DNA of 64,000 nucleotides from Symplocastrum torsivum CPER-KK1 (GTDB lineage: Bacteria; Cyanobacteriota; Cyanobacteriia; Cyanobacteriales; Coleofasciculaceae): positions 1 through 64,000 of the forward strand of contig JAHHIF010000030.1 of the NCBI GenBank assembly GCA_019358875.1, read 5' to 3'. The notes beneath the pieces were generated by a model that saw only the letters and a list, made by a program, of their open reading frames with translations, did not search any database and was not told the DNA's origin. The position numbers and the translations under genes were made by a program. Positions 3,843 through 62,603 of this stretch are shown here, in pieces. Every line of letters begins with the position of its first letter. The first letter of the stretch is position 1.

Positions 3843-6800
3843 TTAATGACTAATGACTAACGATTGACTGGTTTTCCCTTGCTTGGCTGAATCGGGTTGG
3901 GGTGATCGCTTCAACCTCGTTAAACCAAAAATTGCTCCTGCCAGCAGCAATACAATTGCCCCAATCACTGCACCATTTAACCAACTCCGAGTCTCAGCTT
4001 CTCGATCAATGTTGTCTGGTGCAATTGGCTCAGACACCGGAGGTTGTTCAGATATCAAAGGTAGAGGAGGTTGGATGGATGGGCGATGCTGGCTAGGCTC
4101 TTGGTTCGATACAGTAGTCACAGCATCTAGGTTAGGTGGGAGAGCGATGAGATTACTTTCTTCTGGAGGCATTGAAGAAGCGATAGACGAAGCCACGCCC
4201 TCCGGGTTAATTGCCTCTAATGGAGGTTGGGGTTTGCGACTTGGGCTAGAGTGGAGAGCGTTCGCTAAGGCATCCAAACCCGCCTTAGTTGTGAAGTAGG
4301 TGAGATGGTCGCAGGCAGCATCGGGTAGTAAAATCTTAGGCTGAGGCGATCGCGTAGCACTGACACTTTTGATGCTGGCTAAAGTAACAGCAATATCGTT
4401 AGGTTGCTCAAAAAACGTCAGATTGACGACTTTGTCCACAGCCTTGCCAAAGAGCCTCTCCATGAGTCGCTTTAACGAGCTAGAATCCTTCCCCAGTTGG
4501 GTTTCCATAGCCGCTGGGACAATAGAGCGGTCACCCGCAACAATCGTATAAGGAACGTGGGGGTCTGAGTTTTGTGCGATCGCTTTCAGAAAGGGAGAGT
4601 CTGGCTGCATTTGCTCTAGAGAATAGTCGTTACTCTCCAGAAATTGAAGTAAGTCAGCCACTACTTTAGTTGGCCAGACAATTGCCGAAAGTTGATTGAG
4701 TCCTATACCTAGGGCAGCAAAAATCCAATCCTGTACAGCAGGCCAAGGAGAGCCACCGTTCGGCGTGCCTAACATCACTAAGTGTTGAACTATTTGATTA
4801 CCGCCTTCTCGCTCAATAAACCAACGAGAGACTAACCCCCCCATTGAGTGAGCCACAATATGCAGCTCTTTTCCGTGGTTGGGTCCCAAACCTACAGCTT
4901 CCAGCCGTTGCCTGAGCAATCGTCCATTCTCCTCAATTGTCGTTTGGAGATTCTCGTAGTCGAACCCTAAGACAAGGTCATACAGTTCGCTCAAGTGTCG
5001 CTGTTGTCCATCCACATCAACTGTGGCGCGTCGGATACTGGGAACCATACTTTGCGTATCCCCAATAATGCCATGAATGTACAGCACTATCTTCTGGGCT
5101 TGAGCAACCTGCGCCTTTACTTTCTCCTGATTTTTCTCATAAACTACTGTCTCATCATCCCTGACCTCGGCTGCCGATAAAATGGGGTACTCAAATGGAC
5201 TGCCCAACTTTTGGCTCACCACTTTTTGAAAGAAGATACGGATTGAACCCTGCAAGCTGCGGCTGCTTACTAAGGGTTTGGGCAATCGCTCCAGGGTAAT
5301 CTCAGTCTTGCCTTGTTCAGTTGTCACCCCTTGACCTAATGGCAGGAAAAACTCACCATCAAAAGCGATCGGCAAGAGGTGTTCACCCTCCGCCAAGGCT
5401 GTATCAACCACCAACTTAAGAGGAGCTTCTGGTGTCACAACCGTGTAATCTTGTACATCATTTAGCTCCAAGGCACTCAAGCCTGGATCACTGCCTCTAG
5501 TGGTTGTGAATTGAAACGTTTCAGTTAGAGCCGAGTCTTGCCGTAGAATAGCTGGCAGAATCAGATTTCCTAAATCTCTACTAGCCTGCGGTATGGTAGT
5601 GAGCGCCGCTTTAGCTTGCAGACTAGGATGGGGTTGCAACTCAACCACACCCTGCTGTAGAACAGTGCTTTCGTTAGACTGAAGGACTCTCCCCTCCTGG
5701 GGTCGCACGACTGTAAACGTAACGGCCTTCGTCATCCAATCATCGTAGTTTCCTCCGGAGCGCACGACCTCACGAGTATGTACTCCGCTCATTAAACGGT
5801 TGAGCGTACCTTGCCCGAATCCTCTAGTGCCGAAAGGAGGCAAGTCCAGCGCCGGTTGCTCTAGTAAACTGGCATCAAAATCTGTAGTGCTGACAATCAG
5901 CTTGAATACATCCTTATACTCAGTAATGCCCTGCTCCAAGAAGTCCTCTGGGATGACAAACACAAGGTCATCAAAGCTGCTCTCAACTGTTCCGTCTCCT
6001 TCTATGCCTTTGGGTGGAATCCGTAGACTACTTCTCTCGTCAAAAAAGGGGACACTTACAGAGAAGCTCTCTGAAATATCGATGACATTACAGAAGAGCG
6101 TTTTCTGACTGTGATTGGTTAGTTTTATTTTTATTTTTGGTGGTATCCATTCACCATTTTCATAGCTGTACTCCACACGTTGCTCAGCAGCACCTTTTGT
6201 AGAATCATTCTGAGGTGATGCCGATGTATCTCGCCCAGAAAGGATGATAACTTCCATCTCCACATCATTGGGTTTAATTCGACTGGTAGCGGGGCTGGAG
6301 AGTTCGAGAATATTATTCCAACGGGCGATATGTTCTAAGCGCTGAATAACCTGCTGTGCACGTTCAGAGGTGTAACCCGCCTCATCCGGTTTTACAGGAA
6401 TTGGCGCAACTAAAGGACGGTCATCAGTCGGCTGTGTAATCCCGTACTGACCATTACGAACTAGCAGATTGTAATCAGCATCCGTACCTACGTCTACTTG
6501 ATGTACGAATAATGAATGTCCTCCATCAGGTCCGGCTGATAAGAGGGCTTGGCGTACCAGTTCGATGCCGACTTCTTCACCGGGTTCGCCTTTAATAAAA
6601 ACCTTCAAAGGAGGTAGTGGGAGAGCGGTTATAACTGCCCAATAGCTTTCGTTTTCGGATAATTGAAGCTCCGGTGGACTCGCTTCGCTAACGCTACCCT
6701 TGGTAATCTGCACTTTGCTGCGTTGTGGCATCACCTGAGTAACTTTAGCTTCCCCAAGAGCCTTTGAGAGTTGGCGTAACTGTTCTGGAGTACTTCCGGC

Positions 6801-7829
6801 TGGAAAGATAGCTAAAAAGGTATCTCCCGTTGTGGGTTTAAGGATACCGTGCAGCACTCCACCATCAATTACCCAACTATTCTCATTCTTACTACGGCTT
6901 AAAGTGAAGTAGAAGGGGCGTTCGGGAATTGCACCACCCAAGAACGGTTTGTTTAACTCTTCCGGGTCAATTGCTTCAACTTGAGGCGACTGCTCCCTGA
7001 CTTTACCGCTTACCAGAGCATTAAGATTTCTGGCTAAATCTCGATAGCTTATGCTGCCATTGGTTCGCTGTAGAGTTTGCAGGAGGAAATAGGAAAAAGC
7101 ACCTCTATGTTGACCATCTTCTCCCTTATATTCCTTCGCCAGCTCATAATCTCGACAGGCAGAGAACATAACGTGCTTTCCCTTAGGTAACACGACACCA
7201 GCCGTCTTCCTTTCAAGGTTACGAGAAGAGGTTAATAGTTCATCTAAGACCGTTTTTTCTTCATTAAAAATAAAGCTGCTCAAAGAGCGATCGCGAGAAT
7301 CCACAGGACCACGACGCACGGTTACATCTGAAGCTAAATCTCTCGTTCCAGTACCCGAATGACAGCAGTCTAAAATAAGCAAAACATGGGGGTTATTCTT
7401 AGCAACTTTTGAAATTAGGTACCCTAATTCCTTATCAGCTAAATCTCGACCATCTGGTGTACGGCTGTCATGGCAAACTAAAGTTTCATCCAAATAATCT
7501 GGCTCTAAATTCCAAAATTCTTCGGGTGCCTTCTCTTGAGCGCCATGACCTGAATAGTAAAAGAACACGACATCTTCACTGTCAGCGTTGCATAGGTGCT
7601 GTTGAAAGCCTTTGATAATTTCCTGACGAGTCGCCTGCTCGTTTGTGAGTACCCAAGGCAGATCATCCGGTTCTACCAGGTTCCATTCACCCTCCTTAGT
7701 CCGCTCCCGAAGATATTCTTCTATAGCCCTGATATCATTAACGCAACCTTTTAGCAGTGGTACTGGGGGAACTGAAGCCGGATCGTATTCATCGATCCCA
7801 ACCAGCAGTGCATAGATGTTCTTCGCCAT
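3843..7829 (-). CDS. Caspase-domain protein fused to an alpha/beta-hydrolase with a C-terminal membrane anchor
   Basis: 1328 residues. The N-terminal caspase-fold domain (about 1-290) has His95 in YYSGHGAQ and Cys155-Cys156 in LILDCCHSG, the usual metacaspase/orthocaspase dyad. The middle, about residues 290-900, has no domain I can name. A lipase-like alpha/beta-hydrolase follows, with the strand YIHGIIG and a nucleophile elbow AHSMGG (Ser995). After a proline-rich linker a single hydrophobic helix near residues 1285-1307 precedes a basic tail, so the protein is probably membrane-anchored. It lies 84 bp upstream of the caspase-STAND-WD40 gene on the same strand, so the two may be co-expressed. 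Cleavage specificity and lipase substrate are unknown. The caspase and hydrolase assignments are strong; a role in regulated cell death is inference. Confidence 0.88.
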   Translation of the reverse strand: MAKNIYALLVGIDEYDPASVPPVPLLKGCVNDIRAIEEYLRERTKEGEWNLVEPDDLPWVLTNEQATRQEIIKGFQQHLCNADSEDVVFFYYSGHGAQEKAPEEFWNLEPDYLDETLVCHDSRTPDGRDLADKELGYLISKVAKNNPHVLLILDCCHSGTGTRDLASDVTVRRGPVDSRDRSLSSFIFNEEKTVLDELLTSSRNLERKTAGVVLPKGKHVMFSACRDYELAKEYKGEDGQHRGAFSYFLLQTLQRTNGSISYRDLARNLNALVSGKVREQSPQVEAIDPEELNKPFLGGAIPERPFYFTLSRSKNENSWVIDGGVLHGILKPTTGDTFLAIFPAGSTPEQLRQLSKALGEAKVTQVMPQRSKVQITKGSVSEASPPELQLSENESYWAVITALPLPPLKVFIKGEPGEEVGIELVRQALLSAGPDGGHSLFVHQVDVGTDADYNLLVRNGQYGITQPTDDRPLVAPIPVKPDEAGYTSERAQQVIQRLEHIARWNNILELSSPATSRIKPNDVEMEVIILSGRDTSASPQNDSTKGAAEQRVEYSYENGEWIPPKIKIKLTNHSQKTLFCNVIDISESFSVSVPFFDERSSLRIPPKGIEGDGTVESSFDDLVFVIPEDFLEQGITEYKDVFKLIVSTTDFDASLLEQPALDLPPFGTRGFGQGTLNRLMSGVHTREVVRSGGNYDDWMTKAVTFTVVRPQEGRVLQSNESTVLQQGVVELQPHPSLQAKAALTTIPQASRDLGNLILPAILRQDSALTETFQFTTTRGSDPGLSALELNDVQDYTVVTPEAPLKLVVDTALAEGEHLLPIAFDGEFFLPLGQGVTTEQGKTEITLERLPKPLVSSRSLQGSIRIFFQKVVSQKLGSPFEYPILSAAEVRDDETVVYEKNQEKVKAQVAQAQKIVLYIHGIIGDTQSMVPSIRRATVDVDGQQRHLSELYDLVLGFDYENLQTTIEENGRLLRQRLEAVGLGPNHGKELHIVAHSMGGLVSRWFIEREGGNQIVQHLVMLGTPNGGSPWPAVQDWIFAALGIGLNQLSAIVWPTKVVADLLQFLESNDYSLEQMQPDSPFLKAIAQNSDPHVPYTIVAGDRSIVPAAMETQLGKDSSSLKRLMERLFGKAVDKVVNLTFFEQPNDIAVTLASIKSVSATRSPQPKILLPDAACDHLTYFTTKAGLDALANALHSSPSRKPQPPLEAINPEGVASSIASSMPPEESNLIALPPNLDAVTTVSNQEPSQHRPSIQPPLPLISEQPPVSEPIAPDNIDREAETRSWLNGAVIGAIVLLLAGAIFGLTRLKRSPQPDSAKQGKTSQSLVISH

Positions 7830-34312: not shown

Positions 34313-35077
34313 TTGACTGTTGTTATTTCACTGTTCAATCAAGCGGGAGGCGTTGGAAAGTCAACGCTCACCCAAAATCTTGGCTATCACCTTTCCCAAC
34401 GCGGTCATAAGGTTTTGTTGGTAGACATGGACCCCCAAGCTTCCTTGACGACGTTCATGGGGTTGGAGCCTGCGGATTTAGAGAAAACGCTCTACGATGC
34501 CCTAGTGTCTCTTGAAGAGGAGCCGATAGCGCTCCACTCCAACTTGCAGGGTATGGATTTAGCTCCTGCCAACATTGACCTGGCTAATGCGGAACAAGAA
34601 CTAATCTTTGCCGAACTTCGGGAATTTCGGCTGAAAGAGGTACTGGCTCCCCTGTTGCCTAACTACGACTTCATCTTGATTGATTGTCCCCCCAGCTTGG
34701 GGATATTGAGTCAGATTAGCCTCGTTGCCTCGACTCATGTCTTAGTCCCAATTCAGTGTCAGTTCAAAGCCTTGAAGGGGACTGATTCGCTGTTGAAGAC
34801 GGTGGCACGAGTGCAGCGCAAGCTCAACCGAACCCTCAAGTTCGCGGGGTTTTTCCCGACGATGTACAGTGTGAGTAACTCTCTCGACCAGCGCACTTTA
34901 CAATCTATCTCGGAACAACTCTCAAGCCTTGCACCAATATTTCCCCCACTGCCCCGTGCGACAGCGGTGGCGGAAGCGGCTGAGTATGGGAAGCCTTTAG
35001 CGCTTTGCCCTAACAAAAATCAAGCTATCCTACGCCTTTTTGATGAGATTGCCCAGCAATTGGAGTGTTTACTATGA
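34313..35077 (+). CDS. parA: ParA-type partition ATPase
   Basis: 254 residues, TTG start at 34313. The deviant Walker A NQAGGVGKSTLTQNL (Lys16), DMDPQASLT and the Walker B-type FILIDCPPSLGILS define the ParA/Soj family. No N-terminal HTH is present, so this is the short type Ib-like form that does not bind an operator by itself. ParA dimers bind the nucleoid with ATP and are displaced by ParB-parS complexes, which moves the plasmid. The stop TGA overlaps the parB ATG as ATGA (35074-35077). A HIP1 octamer lies in the region upstream; I could not identify parS. Confidence 0.93.
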   Translation: MTVVISLFNQAGGVGKSTLTQNLGYHLSQRGHKVLLVDMDPQASLTTFMGLEPADLEKTLYDALVSLEEEPIALHSNLQGMDLAPANIDLANAEQELIFAELREFRLKEVLAPLLPNYDFILIDCPPSLGILSQISLVASTHVLVPIQCQFKALKGTDSLLKTVARVQRKLNRTLKFAGFFPTMYSVSNSLDQRTLQSISEQLSSLAPIFPPLPRATAVAEAAEYGKPLALCPNKNQAILRLFDEIAQQLECLL

Positions 35078-35997
35078 GTCCCCGACAACGTACCCAACCC
35101 CCCGCTGACCGCTCAAAGCTTAAGAATGTGGCTCTCTTTAGTGAAGAGGAAGAACCAACAGTTCCTTCCACGGTTTCCCTCGACCAAATCATCCTACCTC
35201 CCAATCAGCCCCGCCGCTACTTTGACCCCCAAGCGATGCAGTCTTTGGCGGAGTCGGTGAAGAGCGAAGGGATTCTCCAACCCCTACTCGTTCGACCTGT
35301 AGATGAGAAGTATGAGGTGGTGGCGGGAGAGCGACGCTATCGGGCGGCTCTTGAGTCCGGATTAACCGAAGTGCCGGTGACGGTTCGGGTAATGACTGAT
35401 GACCAGGCGGTTCAGTATGCTCTCGTGGAAAATTTGCAACGGGAAGACCTCAATCCGATTGAGGAGACGGAAGGGATACTCAGCCTTCTTGCTTTCCGTT
35501 TGGGCTGTGACTTAGAGGAGGTCACCTCGAAGCTTTACCGGATGGAAAATGAAGCGAAAGGGAAAGTTACCCGAAATGTTTCGGGTAAGGAGGAAACCGA
35601 AGCGATCGAGCCGGTGTTTACCTCTTTGGGGCGAATGAACTGGCTGTCGTTTGTCCGGACTCGCCTCCCACTGCTCAAACTGCCGGCTGACATTTTGGAC
35701 GCTCTACGGGCTGGTCGCCTTGAGTACACCAAAGCCAAAGCGATTGCACAAATTAAAGACGAAGCTGAACGTCAAAGGCTTCTGTCAGATGCGATTCATG
35801 ATTTCCTGTCCTTGAGTCGAATTCGAGAGCGGGTCAAAGAGGCAAAAGTGTCGTCGAGCGAACCTCCAACTCTAGCTGAGCGGATGGGAGCCACTTATAA
35901 ATTGGCTAAGAAGCAAAAAGTTTGGGATGACCCGAAAAAGCGTAAGAAACTGGAATCTTTGCTGGGTCAGATTGAAGCATTGCTCTCTAAGGCGTAA
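35074..35997 (+). CDS. parB: ParB-type centromere-binding protein
   Basis: 307 residues from the ATG at 35074, which overlaps the parA stop and has TTGGAG 9 bp upstream; an in-frame GTG at 35065 is less likely. The ParB N-terminal domain shows LPPNQPRRYFDPQAMQSLA, GILQPLLVRP, VVAGERRYRAA and the CTP/arginine-patch region LVENLQREDLNPIEETEG. The HTH region (YRMENEAKG ... LGRMNWLSFVRTRLPLLKLP) is followed by a basic C-terminal part. It loads on parS and partners the upstream ParA. It is clearly related to the second ParB at 52754-53677, sharing the same middle and C-terminal motifs. Confidence 0.92.
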   Translation: MSPRQRTQPPADRSKLKNVALFSEEEEPTVPSTVSLDQIILPPNQPRRYFDPQAMQSLAESVKSEGILQPLLVRPVDEKYEVVAGERRYRAALESGLTEVPVTVRVMTDDQAVQYALVENLQREDLNPIEETEGILSLLAFRLGCDLEEVTSKLYRMENEAKGKVTRNVSGKEETEAIEPVFTSLGRMNWLSFVRTRLPLLKLPADILDALRAGRLEYTKAKAIAQIKDEAERQRLLSDAIHDFLSLSRIRERVKEAKVSSSEPPTLAERMGATYKLAKKQKVWDDPKKRKKLESLLGQIEALLSKA

Positions 35998-44670: not shown

Positions 44671-45906
44671 TTAGGCAGCGATTGAGTGGTTAATGCGATT
44701 ATTGGAACTCTCTGGTGCCTTGTTACGGACAAGACTTGCCATCTCTAATAGATGACTCCAGCGCTTTTGCACTTGTTTCGGTGTGATTTTCAAGGCTTTG
44801 GCAATCTCAAAATCGCTCAAATTCGCCCGTTTGAGTGATAACAACTGCTGTTGAAGGGAGTCAAGTTGAGCGACAAATGCGTTCCACTGCGGCTCGGAAA
44901 GTCCCAACTTCTGGTCAAGGTCTGCACCTAACCATTGATGTACTAGCTGCCAGTGAGACGAGTGAGCGAACTTTTCCACATGGTATTTAAAACGCTGTTG
45001 CAGATAATCCCGCGAACGTGGTGTTAAACCCAAGATGTCGTCGATTTCCGGGGCACTCAAGTCTTGCAGCTTTAAGATTAAGTAATCCGCACAATCATTA
45101 TGACCCTGAGACTCTAGGTATTGCACCAGCTCACCAATCACGCGCTCTCGCACAACCGTATCATGAGGGTCAAGAGTATCAGCAACTAGACGCTCTCGCA
45201 CCTGCTGCATCACGGGTGAGCGGTTTTGCATCTGTGCTTCTTCACCTTTGGCAAACTCGGTCACCTGTTCAATGTCCATGACGGTATCGCTGGGTTGGCG
45301 TTTGGCAAAGCTTTTCGCTCTGAGTACCAGTAATTGCACAGCACCATAACGGGTCATTACCCGTCGTTTGGCGTATGCAAGAGTGAACCCCATGTATTCG
45401 GCGAGTTCGATTCTTGTACGCGGGGTGTAGTTATCCGCTAAGTCATTTTCCCGTCTAAAGGCTTTGAGGGAATCGGCGTAAAAGTCTTGTAAGAAGTCTT
45501 CAATCAAGAGGTGTCGAGCGGCAAAGCTTAACTGCGTTCTTTCAGGTGCCACCTGGCGATATATCATCACACTGAGGTGGCTGTGCAGTTCCACACGTCC
45601 TTGCTTTGAACCCAGTTTATAGTACTCAATACACTTAGAGAGACGATGACGTGCCAAGGTTAACTCCCACGAACGAACGTCACCGCCGTTTTGGATGCGC
45701 TCACTCTTGGTACAAATCCGTTCGACTTCTACCACGATGCGGTTGATTACGAGAAGAGCGTTGCTGGGTAGGGAACCAAGCTGAAGTATCAGTTCTTCTT
45801 TTAATAGCTCACTCAACGCCATTGTGTCAGTAACAGTAGAATTTTCCGGAGCGTTGTCGGTTGAGAAAGAAGTTTGATGTAGGGAGTTGGTGGTGGTGGC
45901 GTTCAC
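44671..45906 (-). CDS. HetZ-like / sigma-like DNA-binding regulator
   Basis: 411 residues from a GTG at 45906. The part RTRIELAEYMGFTLAYAKRR, followed by DPHDTVVRERVIGELVQYLE, LQDLSAPEIDDILGLTPRSR and YLQQRFKYHVEKFA, resembles the cyanobacterial HetZ-related family, which is linked to heterocyst and developmental regulation. The C-terminal ISDFEIAKAL-like segment (NLSDFEIAKALKITPKQVQK, about 365-385) is a sigma-region-4-type helix-turn-helix. It is probably a transcription factor. No other development gene is near. A strong Shine-Dalgarno-like sequence on the same strand at 45973-45982 lies too far upstream to serve this start. The HetZ link is from memory of the family. Confidence 0.55.
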   Translation of the reverse strand: MNATTTNSLHQTSFSTDNAPENSTVTDTMALSELLKEELILQLGSLPSNALLVINRIVVEVERICTKSERIQNGGDVRSWELTLARHRLSKCIEYYKLGSKQGRVELHSHLSVMIYRQVAPERTQLSFAARHLLIEDFLQDFYADSLKAFRRENDLADNYTPRTRIELAEYMGFTLAYAKRRVMTRYGAVQLLVLRAKSFAKRQPSDTVMDIEQVTEFAKGEEAQMQNRSPVMQQVRERLVADTLDPHDTVVRERVIGELVQYLESQGHNDCADYLILKLQDLSAPEIDDILGLTPRSRDYLQQRFKYHVEKFAHSSHWQLVHQWLGADLDQKLGLSEPQWNAFVAQLDSLQQQLLSLKRANLSDFEIAKALKITPKQVQKRWSHLLEMASLVRNKAPESSNNRINHSIAA

Positions 45907-47663: not shown

Positions 47664-50006
47664 CTAAGCCTCTGGAGTAAACAATAAATCCAGTGCCTCA
47701 ATTACTTGTAAACCAAAAGCCTGCAAGCCCTGAATCTGAGGGACCGAGCTTTTATGGCTCAGGTGAGTCAGAATCCTGATAACACTTGAATGACCTGGAT
47801 AAATCGGTTCTAGAGTGCGGATTATTTGTAAAGCGAGGTTCTTATCCTGAGTTCTCCTCAACAGTCCAGTTAAGGCATCAATCACCTTTGGGTTCCCAAT
47901 GCCCATCTCTTCAAGCAGCAAGATTAGAAACTTACACGTATTGAGCGTCGGCTCTTCCAGGGAACGCAAGTACTTACAGATAACCGTGACCGCTAGCTGG
48001 CGTTTAGTTTGCAACAGAGCTTGTTGGCACTCATAATAAACCGGACTTGAAACCACCATCTCTTTTTGAAGTCCAGGCTCTTTGAAACACTGAGGACGGA
48101 ACAACTCGATAATCCGGTCGATAACCTCCTCAGCTCGCTCAAAGTTGTTAAACTCAGCTAAACCCGCAGCGATGAGAAACAAAGCTTCACAGGTCTCAAG
48201 TATATCGATACTATCCAATAGCTCCTCAGAGCCTATCTCGTACAGATACTCGAACAACAACTGTTTGTGCGAATCCGCCACATCAGTTCGCCCTAGCCAT
48301 AGCAAAAAGACTTCTCGCCATTGAGATTCTAAGATGCGGCAACGCGGTTGTTCGCCATCAGGGGAGTTAGGGGCACTCTCACAGAAAAAGCGCCAATCCT
48401 TAATCGCACAAGCCGCAAAATATTCCTCAAACGTGGGATGAAAGAAAGCATAGGCCGCTTCATTGGGACTCTCGGCTGCCACCCCAACATGATTTAGCCA
48501 GCCTAACTCCAGAGCTAACCACAACAGCGAGCCTTCCTCGTCTGCCTCTCCGAAAGTTTGGGTGATAGGAGCCGGGATTTGCTCTAGTCGGATTCGGAAG
48601 CGGGAAGTCGGTTGCTTTATTGCCCATAAGGCAAGTTCTCCCAAGGCTTCATTCAGTTGGCGTCGCTGTCGGGTACTACCAATTAACTTGTGCTGCAAGT
48701 CGTAGTAGTTATCAACAAATCCCTTGTAAAGTTTCGCCTTTGTATCGGGCAGTCCTCCCTGCGCTTGCCAGAGATTCCAAGTGTTGCATAGCAAAGCTAG
48801 CCGCAAGGGATTTTTTACCATATCCTTAAGCCGCTCTTTGCCCGCCTCGTTTAGGGAGCGTCGTAACGCTTCTCCGTTCTCAGGTGAGTAGTCATGAAAC
48901 CACTTGCTGATGAACTGAGCCACTTGGTCTTCTTTGGCGTCATCTTCTTCGCTCAGTGCGTCTTGCTCGTCTTTGTAACTAAAAGGCAAGGTGCAATATG
49001 TTTCAACTTTGTCGGCTAGGACATTGAAAGTGCTATCCCAAACATTCGACCGACAAGTCAATACCACCTGCACCTGATGCATCCAACCTTGCTGGAATTG
49101 CTCAGCTAGGGAATCCAGGGGATTGTCTCCTCCCAGTTCATCCACGGCATCGAGTAGTAACCAGACTCGCCCACTCTTAAGTAATTCTTCCAAGGCGTTT
49201 TCCCATTCTTTCGAGGCGGCAACTACCGCCTTTGGCGCGTCTCTCAGCCAGTTTTTCAACAAATACTGACTCAGGGGTTGGTTGCCAACTTCCGCCAAAG
49301 ATACCCAAATGACTACTGGTTCTTCTTCTTTAAGGACTGATGACTCGGTTGATACTATTCTTGAGGCGATTTTAGAGAGCAGGCTACTTTTCCCCGCCCC
49401 AGGCTCACCAATAATCGCAATCGGTTGGTTTTTCGTTTCAAGACTTAGTTTTGGCAAGATAACTTTGTCAAAAAATTCACCGGGCTTAAATATCTGGCTG
49501 ATTTCCTTGCGTTCATACAACAAAGACCCCTGTTGTGCACAATCATCCGCTCCTTGTTTGGTCAGTCGTTTGCGCTTCACCACTGTGACATCGACATACA
49601 AATCATCAATGTTGTGAGTTACCCCTTGCCTTGCGGTTAAGGGGTTGGTGATTAAGCTTTTCGTCTTGAGCGCTAGCATCTCCCGGCATCTTCTTATGAG
49701 TTCCTGAAGCCGTTCCTCCCTCGGTTTCGACTCGACAGGAGTCTTGTTCAAGTCTTCAGGAGCAACAATCTCTTCTATGGCTACGTTCAAAGCTGCACAA
49801 ATACCGTAAGCCTTAGCTGTGTCAACTACTTCTCCCTTAAAAAACTTTCTCAGTGTCTTAGTATCGCAACCTGCCTTGGCAGCAAGTTTCTCGTAACTCA
49901 GGAGCTTTTCGGAGGAGTCGGAATCCACGCTCCTGTGCTTTTCGAGTAATCTTTGCCCTTTCTCAGTCGCTTTAACCCCGCGAGTTGGCTTACCCGTTTG
50001 ACTCAT
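47664..50006 (-). CDS. HTH-NACHT STAND protein (bNACHT-like)
   Basis: 780 residues. The N-terminal 80 residues include an XRE-like helix-turn-helix (SYEKLAAKAGCDTKTLRKFF). The NACHT NTPase has Walker A IGEPGAGKSSLL (Lys206), Walker B VWLLLDAVDELGG (Asp286, Asp289) and a sensor-type VVLTCRSNVW. The winged-helix part ends in FFHPTFEEYFAACAI. The last 200 residues are helical repeats, likely HEAT-like, and form the sensor arm. Bacterial NACHT proteins can be anti-phage NLR-like ATPases. No toxic effector domain is visible, unlike classical bNACHT-effector fusions, so the HTH may make this a regulator or let it repress itself. Three phased palindromes lie 80-120 bp upstream. Confidence 0.85.
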   Translation of the reverse strand: MSQTGKPTRGVKATEKGQRLLEKHRSVDSDSSEKLLSYEKLAAKAGCDTKTLRKFFKGEVVDTAKAYGICAALNVAIEEIVAPEDLNKTPVESKPREERLQELIRRCREMLALKTKSLITNPLTARQGVTHNIDDLYVDVTVVKRKRLTKQGADDCAQQGSLLYERKEISQIFKPGEFFDKVILPKLSLETKNQPIAIIGEPGAGKSSLLSKIASRIVSTESSVLKEEEPVVIWVSLAEVGNQPLSQYLLKNWLRDAPKAVVAASKEWENALEELLKSGRVWLLLDAVDELGGDNPLDSLAEQFQQGWMHQVQVVLTCRSNVWDSTFNVLADKVETYCTLPFSYKDEQDALSEEDDAKEDQVAQFISKWFHDYSPENGEALRRSLNEAGKERLKDMVKNPLRLALLCNTWNLWQAQGGLPDTKAKLYKGFVDNYYDLQHKLIGSTRQRRQLNEALGELALWAIKQPTSRFRIRLEQIPAPITQTFGEADEEGSLLWLALELGWLNHVGVAAESPNEAAYAFFHPTFEEYFAACAIKDWRFFCESAPNSPDGEQPRCRILESQWREVFLLWLGRTDVADSHKQLLFEYLYEIGSEELLDSIDILETCEALFLIAAGLAEFNNFERAEEVIDRIIELFRPQCFKEPGLQKEMVVSSPVYYECQQALLQTKRQLAVTVICKYLRSLEEPTLNTCKFLILLLEEMGIGNPKVIDALTGLLRRTQDKNLALQIIRTLEPIYPGHSSVIRILTHLSHKSSVPQIQGLQAFGLQVIEALDLLFTPEA

Positions 50007-50088
50007 GTGGAATCTGTGCAGAGATTTAGTTGGTTATCTGGTCTAAGCGATAAAAATGCTTGTTGCTCTGGTCGGAGCTGAAAAGTCT

Positions 50089-50130
50089 TTCCGGGAACTT
50101 CCGGGAACTTTCGTTTTCCCGGAAGTTCCC
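50089..50130. promoter_or_regulatory. Triple palindrome array upstream of the NACHT gene (candidate operator)
   Basis: Copies of TTCCSGGAA lie at 50089-50097, 50099-50107 and 50116-50124. The first two are 10 bp apart, so on one DNA face. GGGAACTTCCGGG (50093-50105) and CCCGGAAGTTCCC (50118-50130) also form a perfect 13-bp inverted repeat. No other gene lies within 850 bp on the far side, so the HTH-NACHT gene is the natural target. Confidence 0.65.
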
Positions 50131-51101
50131 TTGAAAGGCAAATCCTCTGACCTTACGGTAGTTATAGCAAGGTCAGTGAGAGTTTTCCACTGAACTGGCA
50201 CCAAACTTCTTGGTGATGAATACTCCTCCTCATCAAGCACTTCTAACTTCTGATTTGAAGGAAGTTGTCAGGCAAGCTATTTAGGAATTATGAGTAGAAA
50301 TCACTCAGAACCAACCTAAGCACTAATGAAGGGAATTGAGACTCAAAACTGCAATCAAACTCAAGCAAATAAAGACTCAATGGGTCTAAAGTCACGAGCC
50401 AAGTTTTGCCTCTCAATAAGCTACGTCCGAGATTGAAACTAACCAGCAATTTGGCAAAGGGATAGTCAAGAGATTAGCCAACTTACTTTCATGGCTTCTC
50501 AAATTTTTAGAGCCAACAAATTTCGAGCTTTCTTAGCTTTTTAGGGTCAACGATGACCGGGATTTGTGCTGGCGTAAAAGCCATCTATTCGCGGTCTAAA
50601 TTCGGTTCACTTCTAGTGGAAAGTCGGTTCACAAGACTCGTTAAAAGCGATCGCTAAATGTAGAGACTACCCAAATAGCTAGAACTCCCTCTACCCAAGC
50701 TAGAGGTCATTAATCCAAAAACTAGTTGGCGAGCAAACCCTCGATTGCCGCACGCAATAGCTAACGCTGCCACAAGTGACAGCGTTAGCTCCCCTGTGGC
50801 ACGAACGCCCTGTCGTCAACATCTAACCCAGCGCTGTTGCACTCAAGCAATTAAATACGTGCCTTTATCCCCGAAACCCCCTCCACTCCAATGATTAGCC
50901 AACTCTCCTTACCCCCCTTTAAGTACGAATTAAGTATTTTGCCGATTTCAAGCCCTAGAACCCTTGTGCATAGGGCGTTGTTATGAACTCCGAATTCTAT
51001 CACAAAATCTTCAAGCCTTTGCAATATGGGCGTTTCAGCCGATCGCTCTTCTCTCACACCTGGGCGATCAGCCTGTTTAAGTATTTTTTGAGTCCGACAA
51101 A
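50131..51101. other. Long gap between the NACHT gene and the second recombinase
   Basis: No convincing gene. One HIP1 site near 50648 and the hairpin structure at 50759-50800. A minus-strand frame of 65 codons (50043-50240) overlaps the palindromes and is not supported. Confidence 0.4.
50759..50800. repeat. Perfect 11-bp hairpin with an overlapping alternative stem
   Basis: AGCTAACGCTG (50759-50769) and CAGCGTTAGCT (50780-50790) form a perfect stem with a 10-nt loop. GCCACA (50769-50774, in the loop) can instead pair with TGTGGC (50795-50800), a pseudoknot-like geometry. It is about 300 bp before the recombinase gene. Confidence 0.6.
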
Positions 51102-52676
51102 ATGAGCACGAAAAAACCTAGAGCTACAAGAGGAAACATTGGTTTGGAAGCCGTCGAGGGACGGTTACGCTTAATTGTCCCTGCCAAACACTCGCCCACT
51201 GGAGAGCAAAAGCGTATCGCCTTAGGAATGAAGGATACTCCCGAAAATCGAGGAGAAGCTGACAAAATCATTAAGCGAATCCATGCCCATATCCAGCTTA
51301 TCGGGGACTATGACCCGCAAAAATTAGAGGAGTACATCTGGGGCAAACCGGAAAATACAGCTAACAAACTCCCGCCTACTCAAGCAAAAGAACTACAGCT
51401 GGATGAATTGTGGACGCTATTTGTTGATCACAAAAGCAAAAGCTGGAGGTTTACGACTTTTATGGGTGTTATGAAAACAGTTGGCTCGCACATCAACAGG
51501 TTAACTACTAAGAAGCTCTCAGATGTTTTGCAGATCGAATCTGAGCTTTCTCAGCTCCGTTATACAGCTAAGTACAGAACTCTAACCAAGATTTCGGCTT
51601 GCTGCACCTGGGCTGTTCATTTCCAGCTCATTTCGCATAATCCTTTTTGGGTGATTGTCGATGGCTTGAAACCACCTAAATCTGATAAAGACCCAGACCC
51701 TTTTACTAGGGAGGAAAGAGACCTAATTATTAAAGCTTACGAAACCCATCCTAGATACAGCTATTTTGCTCCTCTTGTAACCTTTCTTTTTCTCACGGGT
51801 TGTCGAACTGGAGAAGCAGTTGCTTTGCGCTGGAAAAGTGTTACAGAAAAGTACATCACCTTTTGCGAGAGCATATCAGTAGTTCGAGGGAAGCATATTC
51901 ATACAAACAGTACAAAAACTGGGAAGAATCGTGAGTTTCCTCGGACAAATAAGAGTCTAAATAAGCTTTTGAAGCAGCTTAAACCGGAAAATGTCAACCC
52001 CGATGATTTTGTTTTCCAGCAACCCGGTGGAGGTCATATTAACCGTCTAACCTTTCACTACAGTTGGTATGGACAAAAGAATGAGACAAAGGGTCTTGTT
52101 CCTCAAGGAATCGTCTCCAAACTAGCTCGTAAAACCGAAGCTGAAGGAGGGATAGATCATTACCACTGCCCCTATTCAACACGGCATACCTTTATTACTT
52201 TGGCTCTAGAAACAACGGCGATGGAAAAACCTATCTCTCATAGTGATATCTCTCAACTGGCTAGATATGTGGGCAATAGCCCCGCAATGATTTTTGAACA
52301 CTATTTAGGGCGCAGTGGGAACGAAAAGTTAGTCAACACTGAGTTCGACTCACCGTCTCCTCAAGCTTCAGAAGATGGAAAGCCGAGCCTCGACGAACTG
52401 CGAGCCCAATTAGCCACCGCTAACCAACGCATCAACGAACTTACATCGCTCGTACAAACTTTAACTTCATCCCAAAAGCTACCCGCTCCAGTTGAACCCG
52501 CCTCAGAGCCTGAGCTACCACTACCAACGCCTTCCAAAACAGCACCACCACCTCCTCCTCAACCCAATGGGAAAGCGCTCTTCCAGAAGTGGCACCCAAC
52601 TAAACCAGCTGAGGAGTACGAGCAACTTGCCCTGTTCATGTCTCTAGAGGAGATGGTGAATCCTAAGGAGGAGTAA
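51102..52676 (+). CDS. Tyrosine recombinase with N-terminal arm domain and proline-rich tail
   Basis: 524 residues. An arm-type N-terminus (KPRATRGNIGLEAVEGRLRL ... RIALGMKDTPENRGEADKII) resembles phage integrases of the DUF3596-like class. A core-binding domain follows, then the catalytic domain with Arg235 (TGCRTGEAVALRW), Arg361-x-type YSTRHTF with His362, and Tyr401 (FEHYLGRS). The C-terminus adds a short coiled coil (LDELRAQLATANQRINELTS) and a Pro-rich stretch, beyond the usual integrase length. The gene faces a convergent ParB gene across a likely shared terminator. It may mediate integration or excision of a region of this replicon. Confidence 0.9.
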   Translation: MSTKKPRATRGNIGLEAVEGRLRLIVPAKHSPTGEQKRIALGMKDTPENRGEADKIIKRIHAHIQLIGDYDPQKLEEYIWGKPENTANKLPPTQAKELQLDELWTLFVDHKSKSWRFTTFMGVMKTVGSHINRLTTKKLSDVLQIESELSQLRYTAKYRTLTKISACCTWAVHFQLISHNPFWVIVDGLKPPKSDKDPDPFTREERDLIIKAYETHPRYSYFAPLVTFLFLTGCRTGEAVALRWKSVTEKYITFCESISVVRGKHIHTNSTKTGKNREFPRTNKSLNKLLKQLKPENVNPDDFVFQQPGGGHINRLTFHYSWYGQKNETKGLVPQGIVSKLARKTEAEGGIDHYHCPYSTRHTFITLALETTAMEKPISHSDISQLARYVGNSPAMIFEHYLGRSGNEKLVNTEFDSPSPQASEDGKPSLDELRAQLATANQRINELTSLVQTLTSSQKLPAPVEPASEPELPLPTPSKTAPPPPPQPNGKALFQKWHPTKPAEEYEQLALFMSLEEMVNPKEE

Positions 52677-52753: not shown

Positions 52754-53677
52754 TTATCCGTCGATCAATGCTGACAATTCAGAAAGAAGCACCTTCACTC
52801 TCTCCCACTTTTCAGGATTTTCCCAAACCTTAGACTCTCTAATGCGACGGTAAGCTCTTTCCATCAACGTTTTGGAATAGTCTGTCTCAGGGGCGGGTGA
52901 AGAGGGTTTGATGCGTTTTCGCAACTCACTCAGGCTTATATTGTCTCTTATCGCTTCTTCAAGCAAGGATTGTCGCTTCAATTCATCTTTGACTCGTGCG
53001 AGCGCTTGGGCTTTAGTGTATTCCAAGGAGCCGGCTCTGACAACCGACAATATGTCTTCGGGCAACTTGAGCAGCGGTAAGCGATTGGTGACGAAGGACT
53101 TCCAAGTGAACTTCCCCAGCTCGTTAAATGTTGCACAAATCTCCTTAAACGAGTCACTGCCCATAACGTTAGGGGCAGTAACTCCTTTGACTTCATGCTC
53201 GATGCGGTAAAGCAGGGCAACTACTTCTTGTACGGATAGCTTGAGCTTGAGCGATAGCAGTTGCAGGATGCCTTCAGTTTCGTCAATTGGGTTGAGGTCT
53301 TCGCGCTGGAGGTTTTCAACTAATGACAACTGTAGAGCTTCTTCGTCGGTTAGTTCCCTGACGACGACGGGTACACAAGTTAGCCCAGCGATGTGAGCGG
53401 CGCGGTAACGTCGCTCTCCGGCTACCAACTCATACTCACCTGAAGGCTTTTGTCGCACTAGCAGAGGCTCTAGTATGCCTAGCGTCTTTACGGAAGTGGT
53501 TAATTGCTCTAACTTCTCAGACGTGAAAGAACGCCTTGGCCGCTTTACGGGTAATGTGATGGCAGCGAGTGGCACGAGCATGGGGTTGGAGGGTTGTACA
53601 ACTCTTTCGTTCTCCAAAACACTGGCGGCTATTGGCTCACTTATTGGTGACCCGCTTAAAGAGGGACAGGACATCAT
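52754..53677 (-). CDS. Second ParB-like protein (no ParA partner)
   Basis: 307 residues. ParB domain motifs: LPVKRPRRSFTSEKLEQLTT, GILEPLLVRQKPSGEYELVA, GERRYRAAHIAG and LVENLQREDLNPIDETEGIL. The HTH region and C-terminal half (LGKFTWKSFVTNRLPLLKLP, KVWENPEKWERVKVLLSEL) follow the parB product at 35 kb closely. The two are paralogues or parallel acquisitions. No parA lies nearby; instead the gene starts 9 bp after the pentapeptide/nuclease-like gene on the same strand. It may bind a different centromere, act as a regulator, or nick DNA as some ParB-like proteins do. The first is inference from sequence only. Confidence 0.88.
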   Translation of the reverse strand: MMSCPSLSGSPISEPIAASVLENERVVQPSNPMLVPLAAITLPVKRPRRSFTSEKLEQLTTSVKTLGILEPLLVRQKPSGEYELVAGERRYRAAHIAGLTCVPVVVRELTDEEALQLSLVENLQREDLNPIDETEGILQLLSLKLKLSVQEVVALLYRIEHEVKGVTAPNVMGSDSFKEICATFNELGKFTWKSFVTNRLPLLKLPEDILSVVRAGSLEYTKAQALARVKDELKRQSLLEEAIRDNISLSELRKRIKPSSPAPETDYSKTLMERAYRRIRESKVWENPEKWERVKVLLSELSALIDG

Positions 53678-61967: not shown

Positions 61968-62005
61968 TCGTCTCATTAAGTAACCGTTCCGGTTGACCCG
62001 CTAAA

Positions 62006-62040
62006 TTAACAGTCCTGTTAATTGTTAACAGGACTGTTAA
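62006..62040. promoter_or_regulatory. Perfect 16-bp inverted repeat made of two palindromes
   Basis: TTAACAGTCCTGTTAA (62006-62021) and TTAACAGGACTGTTAA (62025-62040) are reverse complements with a 3-bp spacer. Each half is itself a TTAACAG-NN-CTGTTAA palindrome, spaced 19 bp centre to centre. No T-run follows, so a protein-binding site is more likely than a terminator. Confidence 0.7.
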
Positions 62041-62109
62041 TGGCAAAAAAAATCCTGAATAAACTCCTCAAAGCTTTGCCAGAAAAGGATATAGCGATTA
62101 ACAACTTTT

Positions 62110-62390: not shown

Positions 62391-62603
62391 ATGACTACCA
62401 GGAATCAAATCGTTATATCCCAGTACGCTGTTGCCGCTATCAAGATGGCAGTCGCTCGGTTAGGCACTACCAAGGCAAGAACCTATCTTCCCTCTATGGG
62501 ACTCCCGGAAAAGAGTCGATTGTCTTTCGCCTACCACTATCTGGAGTTTTCCTCTGTTTTTCCAGAGGAAAACTCATTTCCGAAAATCCAACTTAACAAC
62601 TAA
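62391..62603 (+). CDS. Possible 70-residue protein, unknown
   Basis: ATG at 62391, reading TTRNQIVISQYAVAAIKMAV and KARTYLPSMGLPEKSRLSFA. Amino-acid use is ordinary for a protein, but the ribosome-binding site is weak and no family is recognised. The competing frame that starts at 62357 looks less protein-like. If real it is a small gene between the iterons and CyRepA1. Confidence 0.35.
   Translation: MTTRNQIVISQYAVAAIKMAVARLGTTKARTYLPSMGLPEKSRLSFAYHYLEFSSVFPEENSFPKIQLNN

Follow-up and report, generated by a model that had tools for sequence, protein, structure and literature searches.

A phased half-site array as the probable operator of a cyanobacterial HTH-NACHT gene

A short array of symmetric half-sites in a 64,000-nucleotide stretch of DNA from Symplocastrum torsivum CPER-KK1 (hereafter the window) lies 83 bp upstream of an HTH-NACHT gene and is probably the cognate operator through which the encoded protein would regulate that gene. 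The array consists of an inverted half-site followed by two direct half-sites 10 bp apart. This layout recurs upstream of genes with closely related helix-turn-helix (HTH) domains and was not seen in front of NACHT homologues that lack this HTH; the letters that fill it track the HTH sequence. For these reasons direct DNA binding and autoregulation, as originally predicted, constitute the best-supported reading, with the qualification that the letters themselves are not conserved. From these comparisons it would appear that HTH-NACHT sensors of this kind probably control their own promoter region through DNA binding.

The element and the gene downstream

The features of the locus are collected in Table 1. 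TTCCSGGAA occurs three times in the window, all at the element (50089-50097, 50099-50107 and 50116-50124), against a chance expectation of 0.46, and only 1 of 100 shuffled windows held three such sites anywhere. The two copies of TTCCGGGAAC are spaced by exactly 10 bp. Three sites, two of them 10 bp apart, are what the original prediction described, and its placement of them 80-120 bp upstream of the STAND NTPase gene agrees with the measured 83-124 bp from the ATG (50006) of this minus-strand gene. The perfect inverted repeat (50093-50107 and 50116-50130) proved longer than the 13 bp first assigned to it, with arms of 15 nt, and only one other inverted repeat in the window has arms this long (62005-62041). 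Symmetric half-sites close upstream of a regulator's own gene, as is characteristic of Cro/C1-type operators, are thus found here.

Table 1. Coordinates of the putative operator and surrounding features in the window
Feature	Position	Strand	Description
Putative operator	50089..50130	-	CCGGGAA-aacgaaag-TTCCCGG-aag-TTCCCGG: inverted half-site and, after an 8-bp spacer, a tandem pair of half-sites with a 10-bp period
Distal inverted half-site	50116..50122	-	CCGGGAA on minus strand
First direct half-site	50101..50107	-	TTCCCGG on minus strand
Second direct half-site	50091..50097	-	TTCCCGG on minus strand, 10 bp closer to gene
Perfect inverted repeat	50093..50130		15-nt arms, 8-nt spacer
HTH-NACHT (STAND) protein gene	47664..50006	-	780 aa
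Cro/C1-type HTH domain	49761..49904	-	HTH_26, residues 35-82, 22.5 bits (cut-off 22.0)
NACHT NTPase domain	48954..49424	-	Residues 195-351, 46.1 bits (cut-off 26.7)
Intergenic region, 1.1 kb	50007..51101		Only a 22-aa ORF at 50216-50284; no intact divergent partner gene
Tyrosine recombinase, divergent neighbour	51102..52676	+	Not counted as part of the unit

The element is unique within its genome. With up to 3 mismatches allowed, the 20-bp core has a single occurrence in the 7.8-Mb genome, which rules out a dispersed repeat of the REP or MITE kind, and the same search revealed no further regulon sites besides the element itself. Weaker matches to the repeat arm lie mostly within coding sequence, and none of them displays the three-half-site layout.

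The encoded protein had been described as a STAND NTPase carrying its own XRE-like HTH, and both the NACHT domain and a Cro/C1-type HTH_26 domain are indeed recognised above their cut-offs. Its C-terminal part resembles, by inspection, the HEAT-repeat region of homologues. Foldseek comparison of the HTH, based on a single-sequence prediction of low confidence (pLDDT 59.5) that lends weak support at most, returned XRE, 434 Cro and C proteins as best matches, all weak (E>0.08), and matches in the PDB by sequence and fold were likewise weak and mostly of the Cro/C1 class. The closest homologues share about 47% identity with the window protein and no closer orthologue was found, so that the window's own letters are not footprintable by comparison; a single-protein scan of GTDB contigs and viral contigs found no close homologues either.

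Further features of the window were noted in passing. The intergenic region upstream of the gene contains a second inverted repeat (50759-50790, arms of 11 nt, loop of 10), and strong inverted repeats with arms of 17 and 13 nt are located at 62005-62041 and 62544-62575. A HetZ-related protein is encoded at 44671-45906 (NCBIfam 587.7 bits, cut-off 612) and a 1328-aa caspase-like protein at 3843-7829 (PADLOC caspase, E 1.7e-41). ParA- and ParB-like genes, recognised by eye, lie at 34313-35997 with a second ParB at 52754-53677; the contig is possibly a plasmid or an integrated element.

A layout shared by close HTH homologues

Among homologues the NACHT part is joined to many different N-terminal domains. 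The HTH module, captured at E 1e-9 by a profile termed A2, is present in 209 of 391 genomes of the order, either as a fusion with NACHT or with other STAND-type cores or on its own. Comparison was made of the regions upstream of the best-scoring A2 HTH genes, with start codons picked by rule. The sequence motif of the window is essentially absent from these regions except for AAGTTCCC in the nearest HTHs, which by inspection occupies the position of half-site 1 in three related HTH-NACHT genes, a paralogue in the same genome included, and in the window too. What recurs is the arrangement: an inverted half-site, a short spacer in which ATTAA is frequent (by eye), a half-site, and that half-site repeated 10 bp on, with letters that vary from gene to gene. 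Examples are AGTGCAG-attgaa-CTGCACT-aat-CTGCACT (L201), AAGGTCA-aattgaaa-TGACCCT-ttt-TGACCCT (L198) and TGGTGAA-gataattaag-TTCCCCA-aac-TTCCCCA (L207), and at least 10 distinct half-site sequences keep the layout.

A strict, orientation-symmetric search (half-sites of 7 nt, a spacer of 4-14, 12 or more of 14 positions matching, between -180 and -30) found the layout at the 10-bp period in 20 of 70 non-redundant regions upstream of genes whose protein starts with the HTH (19 of 69 excluding the window), a count to be read knowing that the layout was first noticed in part of the same data and that related genes share ancestry and are not fully independent. Dinucleotide shuffling, in 30 rounds, gave 1.2 and never more than 3; when the period was set to other values between 7 and 21, 1 to 6 of 70 regions passed; and none of the 32 regions upstream of NACHT homologues without this HTH carried the layout (Fisher p 0.0003). 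About 30% of the HTH genes, under a third, therefore pass. Within the 20 positive regions the tandem half-site faces the HTH gene in 17, and the layout stands 70-125 bp from the start codon in 16. A second test, anchored on the best dyad alone so as to avoid selection by the tandem repeat and covering offsets of 7 to 24 bp, placed the 10-bp offset at the top on both sides, with mean matches of 2.80 and 2.63 of 7 compared with about 1.85. The expectation that the same motif would stand upstream of homologues was thus borne out in arrangement and not in letters.

The letters are linked to the HTH: half-site similarity correlates with HTH identity across 30 genes (Mantel r 0.30, p 0.0005), a relation in which relatedness is only partly controlled and which weakens below 50% HTH identity (r 0.17). 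In a later hold-out of 20 loci, most of them with more remote HTHs, the layout appeared in two, no better than at other periods, and one of the two was a close relative (L284) with a perfect 14/14; the absence of enrichment there limits the layout to the close HTH subfamily. It is likewise absent from the XssQ-like HTH-NACHT subfamily, the region upstream of xssQ included.

Other repeats were seen upstream of HTH-NACHT genes. Some XssQ-like genes show, by eye, direct repeats about 11 bp apart, and four more distant genes (L154, L157, L242 and L250) have upstream direct repeats of about this spacing (TTGACTTGTGC, TGTCGGAGTTC), which perhaps follow the same principle at another period. Palindromes of 18 bp, about 31 bp apart (e.g. 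CAGGGGTTTAAACCCCTG, AGTCCACTTAAGTGGACT), lie upstream of L056, L136, L137, L227 and L232, in several genomes; those of L056 and L136 were first taken as operators but then set aside, because L227 and L232 have them too and they could be dispersed repeats. Within the coding sequences, NACHT homologues from several cyanobacterial genomes contain a single in-frame TGA, which in L109, L126 and L061 falls at an identical position (NTYN*LQ, AAC TGA CTA CAG), where a conserved N-terminal stretch of about 160 codons gives way to the NACHT part; readthrough, re-initiation or a split gene are candidate readings. About 20 further homologues are listed with one TGA, the position having been checked in the three named.

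The shared layout also bears on whether the element might be a core or attachment site used by the neighbouring tyrosine recombinase, whose gene lies 1 kb away. The geometry, with inverted arms around an 8-bp spacer and an extra direct arm, is reminiscent of loxP or FRT, and a recombinase gene is at hand; however, the genome holds no second copy to act as the other attachment site, and the same layout precedes HTH homologues that have other genes as immediate neighbours. Integrase homologues of the window recombinase are only about 40% identical. A recombination site is accordingly regarded as very unlikely.

Promoter position, divergent genes and control

If the element is the operator of the window protein, subunits would bind the 7-bp half-sites via the N-terminal Cro/C1-type HTH. 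Two would sit on the dyad formed by the inverted and the first direct half-site; the third, closer to the gene by a full helical turn, would occupy the same DNA face. With the tandem half-site exactly one helical turn from the dyad, three HTHs could be presented on one side of the DNA, an arrangement that fits a STAND protein which oligomerises and could bind cooperatively. In the 16 clearest homologue cases, -10-like hexamers often start about 18-32 bp past the last half-site, which puts the array beside the -35 position, from where it would govern transcription of the protein's own gene; a consensus scan at the window element itself passed no promoter-like site. As to the sign of control, we lean, by analogy, towards ATP- or ligand-dependent activation with basal control, activation being a reasonable guess because the distant homologue XssQ is a DNA-binding activator.

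The same region could instead act as RNA: within the gene's 5' leader the inverted repeat would form a long hairpin serving as attenuator, terminator or stabilising stem. The minus strand is predicted to fold at -44.7 kcal/mol (z -5.2), with the 15-bp stem extended by 5 bp. Such a hairpin would explain the dyad but not the conserved tandem half-site 10 bp away, and no T run follows the stem on the gene's strand. The search for intrinsic terminators found none on the minus strand and, on the plus strand, one weak overlapping match, fewer than the shuffle mean of 1.6; Rfam gave no family at gathering score, the matches being chance stem matches. Furthermore, the -10-like hexamers of homologues are downstream of the element, which would hence be untranscribed there. 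A role in RNA thus seems quite unlikely.

A further alternative concerns whom the operator serves. In relatives the intergenic region is often shared with a small divergent gene (median start-to-start distance of 165.5 bp from the HTH gene), and two small divergent families, A3 and A4, are mostly divergent from HTH-NACHT genes or genes with similar N-terminal modules. The element might belong to another regulator, or mainly to a divergent partner since lost, with autoregulation wrong or obsolete. In favour of this, the window has no intact divergent partner, and XssQ activates xss cluster genes that include xssP (PMC8205485), whose start lies 165 bp from that of xssQ. On the other hand, the tandem half-site faces the HTH gene in most layout-positive regions, the half-site letters follow the HTH sequence, and NACHT homologues without the HTH lack the layout altogether. 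The arrangement itself is not specific to the HTH, because 12 of 33 controls without it likewise have divergent ORFs in the same range (130-220 bp); divergent pairing thus seems to be a feature of the wider NACHT family. Service to another regulator or to a lost partner is considered unlikely.

Autoregulation remains the preferred reading, and to it the divergent pairing adds a lead outside the main conclusion. In many relatives the shared intergenic region would also serve the divergent small gene, possibly co-regulated with the HTH-NACHT gene, and the putative operator of the window protein may also serve a divergent neighbour; a search of the window for traces of a small divergent gene gave no credible match. 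Divergent ORFs of 50-125 aa with a hydrophobic segment were counted in 31 of 74 cases. The paralogue in the same genome is one of the relatives that have a small divergent membrane protein. Small proteins of this size, often with one hydrophobic segment and without a Pfam match, are encoded divergently 95-320 bp upstream of the HTH gene in L170-L173, L178, L182, L193, L197-L199, L226 and others, and larger partners of 220-234 aa in L130, L133, L132, L202 and L233. The partners in L130 and L133 contain a stretch, GRPDIV...VVEDCKSG, which by eye is like a PD-(D/E)XK nuclease, with no Pfam match in the parts tested. As a tentative and rather doubtful extension, HTH-NACHT proteins of cyanobacteria could form a transcription-coupled NLR system, in which the protein, once it senses its signal, assembles on the phased half-sites of the common intergenic region and induces a small divergent membrane or other effector together with itself, while the letters drift with the HTH and so insulate paralogues from one another.

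Bacterial relatives of NLRs have mostly been studied as effectors that act via protein contact or enzymatic activity. If the present reading is true, a family of NACHT sensors that act through DNA, and whose operators follow a grammar that can be recognised, would connect bacterial NLRs with classical one-component regulation. Such a grammar would make target sites predictable from sequence and the reading of phased DNA by a STAND oligomer testable. Ordinary motif searches would miss an operator of this type, as its layout is independent of the letters.

Comparison with known systems

Cro/C1-type (XRE) autoregulators, such as the C proteins of restriction-modification systems and 434 Cro, possess palindromic multi-site operators beside their own promoter and share the HTH class of the window protein (HTH_26). 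They are small dimers, whereas the window HTH is attached to a NACHT switch; the putative window operator differs from theirs in combining a dyad with one half-site a helical turn away. MalT-like STAND activators join a STAND ATPase to a DNA-binding domain and are expected to act as oligomers on repeated sites; MalT, however, carries a C-terminal LuxR-type HTH, in contrast to the N-terminal Cro/C1-type HTH on the NACHT protein of the window. With the bacterial anti-phage NACHT proteins (bNACHT, Avs, EruA) the window protein has the NACHT core in common. Its matches to the defence models are weak (Avs2, E 4e-4; EruA, E 2.5e-8, 32.6 bits against a cut-off of 1000), all far below full-length membership, and no effector domain was found in it.

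A distant homologue with the same domain order is XssQ of Synechocystis sp. PCC 6803, an HTH-NACHT activator of sulfated exopolysaccharide genes whose DNA binding was demonstrated by gel shift and whose sites lie upstream of the regulated genes (PMC8205485). Autoregulation by direct DNA binding had originally been called unusual for NACHT proteins, a judgement that is too strong given this activator. XssQ resembles the window protein in its N-terminal HTH followed by NACHT, its length of about 780 aa and a detectable homology (24% identity, E 6e-13), and its HTH matches the A2 profile at 2.6e-12. The available passages of the literature on XssQ contain no report of autoregulation. Its consensus as given there, AAGTTNNAC, occurs singly or in tandem (23 bp apart upstream of xssE). 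No AAGTTNNAC site was found at the window element, which is TTCCCGG-based and in which AAGTTCCC is similar only in AAGTT; the putative window operator differs by its inverted and 10-bp tandem half-sites. Autoregulated Cro/C1 operators and HTH-NACHT activators such as XssQ are already known, and the novelty lies in an operator layout that is helically phased, independent of its letters and linked with one subfamily of HTH-STAND sensors.
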